Below are positions 8,642-14,141 of a DNA stretch of 38,503 nt, one piece after another. The position numbers were made by a program, and so were the translations under genes. Source of the DNA: Lachnospiraceae bacterium (GTDB lineage Bacteria; Bacillota; Clostridia; Lachnospirales; Lachnospiraceae); the NCBI GenBank assembly GCA_017621815.1, contig JAGASK010000035.1, forward strand, positions 1 to 38,503, in the 5' to 3' direction. The stretch's first letter is position 1; each line of letters starts with the position of its first letter. The notes beneath the pieces were generated by a model that was not told where the DNA came from, made no database searches, and was given only the letters and a program-made list of their open reading frames with translations.

Positions 8642-9889
8642 TTACTTTTTCGCAGAAATGCTGATATCCAGAACCGTCCAGTCATCAATGCCTGCATCAT
8701 ATTGATTTCCGCAGTAAGGGCAGCATCGATTCCTTGTAGCATCAAAGCTTCCACCGCATCCATGGCAGGATACCTTGACAATGGAAAAGTCCGGCTGAAC
8801 CTTCCACTTTGCATTATGCTTCATATGTAAGTTTACCACTTCACTTTTCGATTTGATTTTGGTGCCGTTAAAATACATATTTTTCATATATACCTTAAGC
8901 TTCACTACAACATATCCGTCAACCTTTTCTATCTTTTCAACCCCCAGGCCGCCCCGGTATTCCATATCGACAATATTTCCCAGAGAAGGAGCAATACCAT
9001 TTCCTTCATACTGAACATATTCCATCGGATCATCCGCATATAAGATCATCCGCATCAGAGATAACGCTTTTCCTTCAAAGTAATCATAACTGAATGCCGG
9101 ATCAAATTTTTGCAGCTCTGCGGTAATCTTTGCCTTTGCTCCGGCCATGCCTACCATAACCGGAATGGATTCACCTGCCCTTAAAATAATCGGTGAGAAA
9201 AGAAGTCCGAATATAAAAGTACCCAAATACATCATCGGTATAATTTCACTGGCCTTGTAATGCTCCAGAATCTTACTGTCACCTGTACTTAGGCTTACTA
9301 ATAACAAAGGCGTAAAAACGGTTGCAAATATAAAACACCATTTAAGCAGTTTCAATAATTTCCTCAAACCAAATTTCTTTACCGGCAGATTGTCTAAGAT
9401 ATAGAAATTAGTCACCTTAGGATACAGCTGCGACATCAAAAAATGGGTACCGCAATAAGCACAGCCTTCGTCCTCCAAGGCAGCTATTTGGGTTATATTG
9501 CCGCAATTCGGACAGACATAAGTTTCATTTCTCCGGTCCTTATTCTCATGCTGCGGCTGCTTAATCAATTGAAATATTGAAATTTCCCTTGTTTCACGAA
9601 AAATTTCTTTGTTGTTATGGTTATATGATATTTTCTCTTTTCCCAGAGCACAATTTAGCCTTTTATTATATCCATTCAGCAAACTGCTAATGGCATAATC
9701 CCCGACCCGCTGCACATTCCCTTCAATACTATAGTCTACAGTTCGCTGAATGCCCTTTTTCTGAAGCCTGTGTTCCTGCATATCCAGATATGCACGAATA
9801 TTCCAGTCCCCTAATTCCGGTTCCTTTCCGGTGCGGGACCACTCTCCCAACTGTTCTGTAAATGTCAGAAATAACTCTTTTTCATTCAT
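8642..9889 (-). CDS. Membrane protein with two zinc ribbons (possibly Tim44-like)
   Basis: A 415-residue protein. An N-terminal helical region (1-115) is followed by a first zinc ribbon (CPNCG at 126-130 and CAYCG at 143-147). Two membrane helices follow (about 184-202 and 217-235), then a domain of about 130 residues, then a second zinc ribbon at the C-terminus (CHGCG and CCPYCG). The domain with KFDPAFSYDYFEGKALSLM resembles Tim44-like lipid-associating domains; that is an impression, not a tested match. I chose the ATG at 9889 because GAGGAAAG precedes it; the in-frame ATG at 9922 lies 6 bp after the deacetylase stop with no ribosome binding site. It probably forms a short operon with the deacetylase. 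Confidence 0.75.
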   Translation of the reverse strand: MNEKELFLTFTEQLGEWSRTGKEPELGDWNIRAYLDMQEHRLQKKGIQRTVDYSIEGNVQRVGDYAISSLLNGYNKRLNCALGKEKISYNHNNKEIFRETREISIFQLIKQPQHENKDRRNETYVCPNCGNITQIAALEDEGCAYCGTHFLMSQLYPKVTNFYILDNLPVKKFGLRKLLKLLKWCFIFATVFTPLLLVSLSTGDSKILEHYKASEIIPMMYLGTFIFGLLFSPIILRAGESIPVMVGMAGAKAKITAELQKFDPAFSYDYFEGKALSLMRMILYADDPMEYVQYEGNGIAPSLGNIVDMEYRGGLGVEKIEKVDGYVVVKLKVYMKNMYFNGTKIKSKSEVVNLHMKHNAKWKVQPDFSIVKVSCHGCGGSFDATRNRCCPYCGNQYDAGIDDWTVLDISISAKK

Positions 9890-9928
9890 AGGTATCTTTC
9901 CTCTCGTCCTAAGCATTGTCATGAACGG

Positions 9929-10777: not shown

Positions 10778-10820
10778 AATAAAAACACCCGGCATAACTG
10801 TTACTACATTCTATGCCGGG
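10778..10820 (-). terminator. Terminator-like hairpin overlapping the deacetylase start region
   Basis: CCCGGCATA (10788-10796) and TATGCCGGG (10812-10820) form a perfect 9-bp GC-rich stem with a 15-nt loop. On the minus strand it is followed by TGTTTTTATT, the signature of an intrinsic terminator for the upstream TIM-barrel gene. The run of U ends at the deacetylase ATG (10777), so the same element could act as an attenuator or hide the GGGUG bases. Confidence 0.65.
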
Positions 10821-10905: not shown

Positions 10906-11832
10906 TTACCTGTTAACAGAAGAAGCAATGCGATGGTAAGTATGGCGCACTCCCCGGACGGCCACCGAATATGCCTGAATATTTTCAGGAAGGGCCATGC
11001 CCGGATAGCCCGTATCTCCGATATGATGAATATCCGTTCCTGCCATTTTGCACATTAAAGCAATCTGCCTGATTGTCTGGGTGTCCGCTCCTTCCTGGCT
11101 TGTTCCGATAGAGGTAATGGTAAGGGCACCCAGGCTATGGGCATAAGTTATCAGCGTTTTCACATATTCCAGGGTAATTCCGGGTACTGTGCCCGGCGCA
11201 GGAAGCAGTATGATATCAGCCCCTGCCTGTACAAAGCTTTCAATATCTTCTTTGGTGATGATATTCTCAGCTGCCTCGGTTACGATACCTGATGCATGCA
11301 TTTTTCCTGCTGCAAGAATTACATCCTTACCCACCTCTTTTTTCAAGGCTTTTAAGGAATCGGTTATGGCCTTATTGCTGACCCCATTGCCTGGATTTCC
11401 CGTTAAAAGAATCATATTCACACCCATGTCCCTTGCTATAGCAGCATTTTCGGCTGTTGCTTTCCTGCCTTCCGACATTTCCCACAAGGTTCCCTGATTT
11501 TCCGAAGCTATTTCCTCTTCTACCGGTTCAAGGTTCAATCCGATTACCCTTCCTGTCAGACGCTTCAGCTCCCTTATGGTATCCCCGGCTTCCACAACGG
11601 GAAGGGCCTGAATAACCGGCTTATTCACATCAAACATATTCAGCAGCACGATATCAGCTCCCATAGCGGAAACAAACTCAGCATTTGTCACATCAGTAAG
11701 CAGGGGCATGGTAAGCCCGATGCATTCTGCCGCAATTACCCTTCCTTCACTTTTCACAATGCTTTCAAGTAATTCCTCTTTTTTGTATGACGCCAGTTCT
11801 GATGCTGTCGCATCAAGCAGTCTTTTTGCCAT
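10906..11832 (-). CDS. TIM-barrel protein of unknown reaction next to the EIIC-EAL gene
   Basis: A 308-residue soluble protein with an evident (beta/alpha)8 rhythm: RVIAAECIG, ADIVLLNMF, RVIGLNLEP, GVNMILLTGNPGNG, DVILAAGKMH, ADIILLPAPG, ALTITSIGTSQEGAD and GTDIHHIGDTGYPG mark successive strands. The PGNG and GTVPG loops look like phosphate-binding turns. I recall this family as a domain of unknown function sometimes labelled PEP-phosphonomutase-like or haloacid-dehalogenase-like; I cannot assign a reaction. GAGAGGAAAC precedes the ATG. It follows the PTS EIIC-EAL gene by 85 bp in the same direction and is probably cotranscribed from the promoter at 14113-14141, which suggests that it acts on the product of that transporter. 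Confidence 0.75.
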   Translation of the reverse strand: MAKRLLDATASELASYKKEELLESIVKSEGRVIAAECIGLTMPLLTDVTNAEFVSAMGADIVLLNMFDVNKPVIQALPVVEAGDTIRELKRLTGRVIGLNLEPVEEEIASENQGTLWEMSEGRKATAENAAIARDMGVNMILLTGNPGNGVSNKAITDSLKALKKEVGKDVILAAGKMHASGIVTEAAENIITKEDIESFVQAGADIILLPAPGTVPGITLEYVKTLITYAHSLGALTITSIGTSQEGADTQTIRQIALMCKMAGTDIHHIGDTGYPGMALPENIQAYSVAVRGVRHTYHRIASSVNR

Positions 11833-11917
11833 GTTCTGTTTCCTCTCCGCTGTTCATATTCAGCTATTTCATTATATAGACTTATTATATCCAATACCCT
11901 GCCGGGCTATTCTCATC

Positions 11918-14071
11918 TTATATATGCTGTTCCCGTTTTGCTTCCTCCGGTATTATCTGTTCCAGCTGTTCAATAGGTACCGCCGGGCTGTACAAATATC
12001 CCTGATACTGGTAACAACCCGTCTGTTCCAGTATTTTACGCTGTTCATCGGTTTCCACATATTCTGCCAGCACCTGAATATTCAGGTTTTTTGACAGGCT
12101 GGAAATAGATGTGATAATATCACAGCATCTGAAATTATTCATAACGCCTCTGCTCAACTCACCATCCAGCTTAATCAGATTAAATAAATTAGTCTGCAGA
12201 TACTTAATGGATGTGCTTCCCATGGAGAAATCATCTATTGCAAGTTCAAAGCCCATCCTTTTGATTCTTGTCAGCTTTTCAATCAGCGCTTCATTGATTT
12301 GAAGAGACGCCTGTTCCGTAATTTCTATCATAACATGCTTACAATACTCCGGATATTTTTCTCCCAGTTCCGCTAAAAAGTCCTCAATTTCCTCTGACTG
12401 TATTGTAGTCCCCGTTATATTGACAGAAATAACAGCCTGCTTTCCAAGGGCTGCAAGGAGCCGCTCCATATCTTCAAACACTGACAAAAACACCAGTTTT
12501 TCCAATTCGAAAAGCTTGTCCGTTTCTTCTGCAAGCTTAAAAACAAGGGGCGGATAAACCATTCCGTAAAAAGAATGCTTCCAGCGAAGCAGCGCTTCTG
12601 CACCCTTGCATTTTCCCTGATTATCAAACTGCGGCTGATAATATACTGTCAGTTTTCCGGATTTTATCTGGGTTCCCAGTTCTTCCGCCAAATCTCTCGC
12701 TACCAGCCCCGAATCATTTTTTAAAGCAAGCAAATCCACCGGCTTCCTGGTTTCCTCGCTTTCCTGCAGAATATCCACTAACCGCTTCATTCGCAGGCTG
12801 AAATCATTCAGGCTTTCATCCTCAAGAAGCCGTATAAAGGGCTTGTACAGCATCACTCCTACAGCCAGATTCACCACCTGCAATACAGAACCTGCCACTG
12901 AACCGGTTGCCTGATATCCGCCAAGAAGCACCGGTGTTGTCCATTCCACCTCATGCACCGGAAGCGGAACAATCCCTATTGTCATGGCGCCATAGCTAAT
13001 CAGAATAAGTACCATGGGCACCAGCAAAAAAGGAATGAAAAGAATAGGATTAAAGACCACCGGCAGCCCGAAGGTCATAATTTCATTAATATTAAACAGC
13101 ATGGGAACCAGCGCAAACTTCGAAAGACTGCGGTTGCTTTTCCGCTTACCGAAAAGGAGAAGTGCAATTAACAGGCACAATGTACCTCCGCATCCGCCTA
13201 TCAGTACAAAAACATCAAAAAATGTCTTGCTGAATATTTCTGTTGCGGGAAGCCCCTGACTTATCAGTTCAGTGTTAATGTCAATAGCCGGCACAAAAAT
13301 ACTCTGGCTTGCTGATTCAAGCACATCATTTCCGTGAATTCCGAAGAACCAGAGCAGATTCAAAATAAATTCAAATAGCAGTGCTGTTCCGAGGGAACGT
13401 CCCATATTTTCAAAAATGCGGTTCAGGACATTCGTGAACAGCATATGGAAACCTGTGACCTGAAACGCCTGGCATATAATCACATTTAACAGGGCAAAAA
13501 CAAGTGCAACCACTCCCAGCGGTACAATTGAAAAAATCATATCATGAAAGGAGGCGTCCGTACCTTCCGCATAAAAACGCATCTTCTTCCCTAACCGGCC
13601 ATCCACCATGTCATATAAAAATGAAGCTGTAAGAGCACAGATGACAGCTGTAAAAATCCCCTGCGCCCCCAGCACGCCCATATCCATTCCCTGCACGGAA
13701 AAAGCTCCGCTGAATATTGCAAAGCTGATTAAAGCCGCGAAAACCGCACCGTAATTATGAGGACGTGCCGCCATATGCTGTCTGATATAAGACAGGGAAA
13801 CACTGACCACCATATACAAAGACAGAATTCCGAAGGCTGCACGATAAATTGTATAAAACAGACCGCTAATAAAGCCGCCGCAAAAATCTGTAATCAGCCT
13901 TTGGTATCCTGAAACAGGCAGTGAATACAGCATCAATGCCAATGAACCGATTAGCAGTATCGGTGCCATCAAAACAAGGCTGCCCCGTATACAGCGAAGC
14001 AGCCTTGAATTCATCATTTTAAAATATAAACTTCTCATTACACTGAGAAATTCCCCTCTATGCTTTTCCAT
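11918..14071 (-). CDS. PTS EIIC (lactose/cellobiose type) fused to a c-di-GMP phosphodiesterase EAL domain
   Basis: A 717-residue fusion. Residues about 1-415 are a polytopic EIIC of the Lac/Cel family: FGIHG carries the substrate-site His (about 246) and FNINEIMTFGLPVVFNPILF the conserved Glu (about 330). A short linker leads to a cytoplasmic EAL domain (about 465-707). Its motifs are EALLRWKH, SVNIT, EITEQ, AIDDFSMG, KLDGEL, AEYVET and YQGYLYSP, so the metal and c-di-GMP residues are essentially all present and phosphodiesterase activity is plausible. EIIA and EIIB are not encoded nearby, so it may sense a sugar rather than transport it. I chose the ATG at 14071 (GGGG upstream); an in-frame TTG at 14101 is possible. 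A strong promoter lies at 14113-14141. Confidence 0.88.
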   Translation of the reverse strand: MEKHRGEFLSVMRSLYFKMMNSRLLRCIRGSLVLMAPILLIGSLALMLYSLPVSGYQRLITDFCGGFISGLFYTIYRAAFGILSLYMVVSVSLSYIRQHMAARPHNYGAVFAALISFAIFSGAFSVQGMDMGVLGAQGIFTAVICALTASFLYDMVDGRLGKKMRFYAEGTDASFHDMIFSIVPLGVVALVFALLNVIICQAFQVTGFHMLFTNVLNRIFENMGRSLGTALLFEFILNLLWFFGIHGNDVLESASQSIFVPAIDINTELISQGLPATEIFSKTFFDVFVLIGGCGGTLCLLIALLLFGKRKSNRSLSKFALVPMLFNINEIMTFGLPVVFNPILFIPFLLVPMVLILISYGAMTIGIVPLPVHEVEWTTPVLLGGYQATGSVAGSVLQVVNLAVGVMLYKPFIRLLEDESLNDFSLRMKRLVDILQESEETRKPVDLLALKNDSGLVARDLAEELGTQIKSGKLTVYYQPQFDNQGKCKGAEALLRWKHSFYGMVYPPLVFKLAEETDKLFELEKLVFLSVFEDMERLLAALGKQAVISVNITGTTIQSEEIEDFLAELGEKYPEYCKHVMIEITEQASLQINEALIEKLTRIKRMGFELAIDDFSMGSTSIKYLQTNLFNLIKLDGELSRGVMNNFRCCDIITSISSLSKNLNIQVLAEYVETDEQRKILEQTGCYQYQGYLYSPAVPIEQLEQIIPEEAKREQHI

Positions 14072-14112
14072 ATTTCCCCACAAAAGTTTTCCTTTACACA
14101 AATTATAACAAT

Positions 14113-14141
14113 ATTATACTTCTATAATCTGTATTTGTAAA
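14113..14141 (-). promoter_or_regulatory. Strong sigma-A promoter for the EIIC-EAL gene
   Basis: On the minus strand TTTACA (14141-14136) and a perfect TATAAT (14118-14113) are separated by 17 bp. The predicted transcript starts near 14106, about 35 nt before the ATG at 14071. This promoter would make the alternative TTG start at 14101 almost leaderless, which favours the ATG. Confidence 0.75.

Follow-up and report, generated by a model that had tools for sequence, protein, structure and literature searches.

A lactose/cellobiose-type EIIC domain joined to a predicted c-di-GMP phosphodiesterase: a candidate sugar receptor independent of the phosphotransferase system

The stretch of DNA analyzed here, hereafter the window, comprises 38,503 nucleotides of a Lachnospiraceae bacterium (GenBank assembly GCA_017621815.1, contig JAGASK010000035.1). 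Our subject is one of its minus-strand genes, an open reading frame (ORF) that joins a membrane EIIC domain of the lactose/cellobiose type, PTS_EIIC, from the sugar phosphotransferase system (PTS), to an EAL domain of the kind that degrades cyclic di-GMP (c-di-GMP). The encoded protein has 717 amino acids when counted from the ATG at 14071, and all residue numbers given below follow this count; the longest frame, 11918-14101(-), begins with TTG, with in-frame TTG alternatives at 14083 and 14101. The gene and its parts are as follows.

11918..14071, minus strand: EIIC-EAL fusion gene (ORF, Pfam and NCBIfam)
13016..13981, minus strand: PTS_EIIC domain, residues 31-352 (Pfam PF02378; 3QNQ aligned over residues 18-420)
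12686..12835, minus strand: EIIC-EAL linker of about 50 residues, 413-462 (alignment of fusions)
11984..12685, minus strand: EAL phosphodiesterase domain, residues 463-696, with a full active site (Pfam PF00563 and residue check)

Both domains were matched by Pfam in the same frame and well above cut-off, with E-values of 1e-32 for PTS_EIIC and 1e-48 for EAL (165.9 bits against a cut-off of 31.3). In the NCBIfam scan, the protein scored 249.7 bits against the lacE model TIGR00410 (cut-off 236), which places it within that subfamily, and fell below the cut-off of 434.45 for the cellobiose equivalog TIGR00359. Its nearest solved EIIC is the cellobiose transporter domain ChbC (PDB 3QNQ, 8e-52), and in the alignment H246 and E330 of the fusion face H250 and E334 of 3QNQ, which we take to be the sugar-site residues; these are the intact His and Glu that the first-pass annotation of this DNA had described. 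The same annotation had called the active site of the EAL domain apparently complete, which is borne out by the presence of E492, N551, E583, E586, D613, D614, K634, E670 and Q690, presumably the full list of nine residues that an active EAL site requires. The inspection thus confirmed, at the level of sequence, a fusion with an intact sugar site and an intact EAL site, and the protein is predicted to be an EAL-type c-di-GMP phosphodiesterase.

Both sets of residues were followed across 29 fusions, made up of 20 aligned sequences together with those of C. difficile, Acetoanaerobium, Vibrio, Tritonibacter, Pseudoalteromonas, Photobacterium and three further genomes. The nine EAL site residues are kept in all 29 (the 20 aligned at first, and then three, three and three more), as is E330; H246 is kept in 28. 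Around the sugar site, W241, G244, H246, G247, N327 and E330 are invariant among the 20 aligned fusions. Because both residue sets are kept throughout the 29 proteins, the family looks selected for the sugar site as well as for the phosphodiesterase site.

At an E-value of 1e-60 or better, matches to the fusion were found in 16 of 295 genomes of the order and in 6 of 98 relatives (own genome included in both counts), and in 3 of 37 genomes within the genus. A match was also found in 10 of 348 genomes of the phylum, of which four are fusions by frame length, own genome included, and six are plain EIICs. When the order, relative and phylum sets are combined, they yield 23 fusion carriers, 20 of which are covered by some of the PTS searches reported below. 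The architecture was confirmed by Pfam in all 10 relatives scanned, with hosts that include C. difficile, Acetoanaerobium, Vibrio, Tritonibacter and Pseudoalteromonas, and EIIC-EAL spans Bacillota and Pseudomonadota.

The distribution of PTS partners among these carriers bears directly on how the fusion may work. Of 20 carriers, 16, own genome among them, lack lactose-family EIIA (PF02255) and four have it; lactose-family EIIB (TIGR00853) is above cut-off in none of the 20. Four clear sub-cut-off EIIB matches (E 1e-21 to 1e-28) sit in the four EIIA-bearing carriers, where each adjoins the EIIA and a separate plain EIIC; two further matches are marginal. Enzyme I, searched via its N-terminal domain PF05524, is absent from three of the 20 carriers and from all three additional phylum carriers (6 of 23), with completeness values of 97-100% for these six assemblies, one of which is a single 4.0 Mb contig and one of which shows 7% contamination. 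HPr is missing from two of the 23 carriers, both without Enzyme I, and one more of the six has a weak HPr match only. The fusion is the sole PTS_EIIC match in 5 of 20 carriers; a sixth has a second match, which falls short of the cut-off and contains a stop. In the own genome, a 91.6% complete assembly, no PF02255 EIIA and no TIGR00853 EIIB was detected, near the fusion gene or elsewhere, nor was any clearly cognate EIIA or EIIB found for the fusion; the first-pass annotation had noted their absence from the vicinity, and this extends to the whole assembly for the lactose-family types. Judged from these gene inventories, the PTS looks dispensable for the EIIC-EAL family. The possibility, raised in the same annotation, that sugar transport through the PTS gates the signaling is disfavored, given the carriers that lack a cognate EIIA (16 of 20) or Enzyme I (6 of 23).

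The EIIC half of the fusions also differs from plain EIICs in its prolines. All of 21 plain EIICs, an author-selected set of 12 proteins from the compared genomes and 9 from plasmid records, have Pro at position 331, which directly follows the conserved Glu, as against 1 of 29 fusions; the window's fusion has Ile331. Likewise, Pro is found at 219 in 1 of 29 fusions and at 376 in 3 of 29, versus 21 of 21 plain EIICs at both positions. The glucose family has a GITEP motif, whose Glu is required for both transport and phosphorylation according to PMC12900739. In a tree built from 23 fusions, 12 plain EIICs and one EIIC joined to a methyl-accepting chemotaxis protein, MCP (36 EIIC domains in all), a single change separates fusions from plain proteins, with the EIIC-MCP protein in between; being unrooted, the tree gives no direction of change.

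This EIIC-MCP protein, encoded at L039:7496-9841(-) in genome G116, consists of PTS_EIIC joined to an MCP signaling domain. Its gene stands in a cluster that further holds two MCP genes, a CheW-receiver gene, a stand-alone EAL gene and a gene with an HD domain. It shares with EIIC-EAL a related N-terminal membrane EIIC and the lack of Pro at 331, and differs in its output, a chemotaxis signaling domain, and in retaining Pro at 219. As far as domain content can tell, it would be a case of an EIIC domain serving another signaling output, with EIIC as the input of a chemoreceptor.

We propose, with a probability of roughly 0.6, that EIIC-EAL is a sugar receptor that works without the PTS and controls a c-di-GMP phosphodiesterase. 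The sequences show the fusion itself, the two intact sites and the lack of PTS partners in many carriers; the proline differences, the separation of fusions from plain EIICs on the tree, the GGDEF genes that adjoin the fusion at some loci (see below) and the EIIC-MCP protein also speak for the proposal. The link between a sugar and c-di-GMP that the first-pass annotation had suggested is, in our comparison, the likeliest role. The fusion protein would be a membrane-bound one-component c-di-GMP phosphodiesterase whose EIIC domain derives from the fold of a PTS transporter of di- or oligosaccharides and may have been repurposed as a receptor. A sugar from outside the cell would bind where the transporter held its substrate (H246, E330); the EIIC domain, presumably a dimer, would change shape on binding, and the linker of about 50 residues would relay this change so that the EAL domains shift and c-di-GMP hydrolysis is altered. 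Neither EIIB docking nor sugar phosphorylation nor an Enzyme I/HPr phosphorelay would be needed. An EIIC transporter is described as a dimer with alternating access in PMC12900739. As for the ligand, a beta-linked disaccharide is the default guess, by analogy with the lacE/ChbC relatives.

Several observations weigh against this proposal. Enzyme I is present in 17 of the 23 carriers, own genome included, and the own genome contains three Enzyme I matches, seven HPr matches (two of them weak) and two other EIICs, one of which includes an EIIB domain of family PF02302 (37 bits against a cut-off of 23.6) with no TIGR00853 match. PF02302 is named for the lactose/cellobiose EIIB, yet it covers other EIIB kinds. 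The own assembly, of 3.5 Mb, has only the completeness of 91.6% given above. With regard to the prolines, the selected plain EIICs include close kin (L246, L247 and L249 on the tree) and not all of them adjoin an EIIB, and 3QNQ itself carries Met at 331 and lacks Pro at 376, yet keeps Pro at 219; because this solved structure departs from the pattern, the signature is usual rather than strict. Finally, a single-sequence structure model of the fusion reached a pLDDT of 39.9, and since there is thus no usable model of the protein (pLDDT of about 40), signal transmission from EIIC to EAL is a conjecture.

Alternatively, the EIIC half may still transport a sugar and phosphorylate it by means of an EIIB taken from a different PTS, the flux then gating the EAL domain. 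The intact His and Glu of the sugar site agree with this, as does the presence in the own genome of Enzyme I, HPr and two other EIICs with EIIB domains, one of them the PF02302 domain; the missing lactose-family EIIA and TIGR00853-type EIIB, and the six carriers without Enzyme I, speak against it. We regard this scenario as unlikely, and a borrowed EIIB for the fusion in the own genome is likewise unlikely. Slightly less probable again is an EIIC that serves merely as membrane anchor and dimerization platform for a phosphodiesterase that is constitutive or controlled by expression: no conserved neighbor was seen among the fusion loci and the gene has a promoter-like site of its own, as expected on that account, but the invariance of the sugar-site residues and their surroundings in the 20 aligned fusions would be needless for an anchor. 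The arrow could also point the other way, with EIIC acting as a sugar facilitator that needs no phosphorylation and is gated by the EAL domain as this binds or hydrolyzes c-di-GMP. Both halves are conserved and sequence does not set the direction of control; nevertheless, the full catalytic set in 29 of 29 fusions suggests an enzymatic output, and the EIIC-MCP relative employs EIIC as input, for which reasons we consider the reversed arrow improbable. The remaining alternative concerns the gene next to the fusion, and here the other features of the locus come into play.

14113..14141, minus strand: sigma-70-like promoter upstream of the fusion, TTTACA-17-TATAAT, 11/12 (consensus scan, which gives 33 promoter-like sites in the window versus 23.1 expected in shuffles and is no proof of function)
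13975..14007, minus strand: 13-pair hairpin followed by TTTT, near the 5' end of the fusion ORF and within its first 100 bases (fold -24.5 kcal/mol and z -4.6, strong for the window, though over 20 of its 53-base stretches fold better)
10906..11832, minus strand: DUF7916 (PF25509) TIM-barrel gene, adjacent to the fusion and outside any conserved unit (Pfam, AlphaFold, locus comparison)
10781..10820, minus strand: terminator-like inverted repeat and T run after DUF7916 (sequence inspection; fold of a partial piece z -2.0)

The product of 10906-11832(-) matches Pfam DUF7916 over its full length (429.8 bits, model positions 1-296 of 296), and its AlphaFold model consists of alternating strands and helices with a pLDDT of 90. 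The first-pass annotation had suggested that it may convert the ligand, and a DUF7916 protein that converts the ligand sensed by EIIC-EAL is the last alternative. The two genes lie on the same strand with a gap of 85 bases and the terminator-like repeat follows DUF7916, for which reasons their cotranscription is plausible; moreover, DUF7916 is found near PTS genes elsewhere, including a plain EIIC of the fusion's own family at two loci (L127, L130). Against this stands the comparison of loci and genomes. The fusion turned up at none of the 115 fetched DUF7916 loci (some drawn twice), and DUF7916 at none of the 25 fusion loci. Among the 98 relatives, the fusion is present in 6, DUF7916 in 19 and both in 2, which is at chance level (hypergeometric P 0.33), and in G654 the two genes lie on different contigs. 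A conserved fusion-DUF7916 pair was accordingly rejected, and we give a functional pairing very little credence. The neighborhood and phylogenetic comparison that had been proposed as a check on the partnership thus returned no conserved linkage between the two genes, and it leaves the fusion itself untouched. DUF7916 is a neighbor of the fusion, not an obligate partner.

DUF7916 is a family with a recurrent PTS neighborhood of its own, of the glucose type. It is present in 28 of 348 phylum genomes, and PTS cluster genes lie near it at 12 of 16 fetched phylum loci and at 2 of the 19 loci of relatives; in addition, they occur at 12 of the 80 best named loci (fetched flanks up to 10 kb), which come first by similarity among at least 573 and share members with the other set of DUF7916 loci. 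Representative neighbors were identified by Pfam as glucose-type EIICB, EIIA, antiterminator, Enzyme I and CutC. At L103:2307-9155 and at L104, both from the same genus, a one-strand cluster runs from DUF7916, in first place, through CutC, antiterminator, HPr, Enzyme I and EIIA to EIICB. At L127:6816-10928, a plain lactose-type EIIC in which Gln replaces the sugar-site His lies between two DUF7916 genes, with a sigma-54 activator-like gene near by. Of the six phylum genomes whose match was a plain lactose-type EIIC, four (G379, G414, G543 and G565) also contain DUF7916, against 28 of 348 overall, with a P of 0.0005 in a test made after the fact, in which some genomes are close kin and the genes are at least 40 kb apart where they share a contig.

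On the minus strand, read in the direction of transcription, the gene order is AraC-type regulator, rhamnulokinase, L-rhamnose isomerase, rhamnulose-1-phosphate aldolase, lactaldehyde reductase, fusion, DUF7916 and polysaccharide deacetylase. The gap upstream of the first possible start of the fusion is 82 bases long and contains the promoter-like site. A link between the fusion and the rhamnose cluster was considered and rejected: rhaA, rhaB and rhaD have no match in the 80 named DUF7916 loci, the lactaldehyde reductase has one (L150), and in a clustering of the window with 15 fusion loci and L039, the sole gene to group with one of the rhamnose cluster was an iron alcohol dehydrogenase at L034. 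Because it was not seen again at other loci, the rhamnose neighborhood is no evidence for rhamnose as ligand. The 5' hairpin was considered as an attenuator, and the first 250 bases of 22 other fusion genes showed no consistent equivalent. The Rfam search gave no match at gathering threshold in the window. Further along, 8642-9922(-) encodes a 426-residue protein with two Cys-rich stretches resembling zinc ribbons, two membrane stretches as judged by eye, and no Pfam or NCBIfam match at E 0.001.

At other fusion loci, the search for a shared partner gene ended without a candidate, as the neighbors vary from locus to locus and many of them are unrelated genes (not every neighbor was scanned, and several loci end at contig ends). 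With the same scope of neighbors scanned, at least two of the 22 other loci have a GGDEF gene of the same strand right beside the fusion: at L024 the EIIC-EAL gene directly precedes the GGDEF gene, and at L031 it overlaps the end of an upstream GAF-GGDEF gene. In genome G663, an arabinofuranosidase gene starts just after EIIC-EAL on the same strand (L116:9949-11478(+)), a possible ligand clue for that carrier. In G684, genes for a sugar transporter of the major facilitator superfamily and a glycogen-branching-type enzyme lie downstream of EIIC-EAL, again on the same strand (L113:3679-7893(-)).

So far, EIIC-EAL has been an architecture label without a mechanism. If the receptor proposal is correct, a single gene would connect a particular sugar outside the cell with the choice between motility and a sessile life that c-di-GMP governs, in hosts ranging from clostridia to marine proteobacteria, and the genomes without Enzyme I offer natural test cases for independence from the PTS. 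More tentatively, and with somewhat less than even confidence, we suggest a class of PTS-free, EIIC-derived sugar receptors whose output is c-di-GMP breakdown in the case of EIIC-EAL, which occurs in Bacillota and Pseudomonadota, and chemotaxis in that of EIIC-MCP, with the sugar site kept and the Pro after the Glu mostly lost.

The EIIC-EAL architecture is known; what is new is the evidence on PTS partners in its carriers. PTS phosphate is carried on EIIA and EIIB, not on EIIC. Because of this, and because six carriers lack Enzyme I, a ligand receptor fits EIIC-EAL better than a phosphoreceiver, and the view of EIIC as phosphoreceiver would need correcting if the proposal holds. That label is the one given to PTS_EIIC in PMC8846402, where PTS_EIIC-containing c-di-GMP proteins are counted as a domain architecture; its PTS_EIIC plus EAL proteins have the same architecture, and the window's fusion is a member. 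The first-pass annotation had called the fusion a known label without a described mechanism, and this agrees with the domain count in print and with our search of the open literature (most subscription papers being outside it), which returned no described mechanism for EIIC-EAL or EIIC-MCP.

Compared with the lactose/cellobiose EIIC transporters (TIGR00410; ChbC, 3QNQ), the EIIC of the fusion is homologous and has the same His and Glu, whereas most carriers have no cognate EIIA/EIIB and Pro 331 and Pro 219 are nearly always lost, the former being absent from 3QNQ as well. The yeast glucose sensors Snf3 and Rgt2 are also transporter-derived receptors, and differ in fold, organism and output. 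The closest parallel in output is the EIIA-Glc/PdeS system of Vibrio cholerae, in which, according to PMC8846402, sugars likewise control a c-di-GMP phosphodiesterase via a PTS protein; there, the phosphorylation of a separate EIIA is read and the PTS is essential, whereas in EIIC-EAL the input would be a covalently joined membrane domain for which the PTS is seemingly dispensable.

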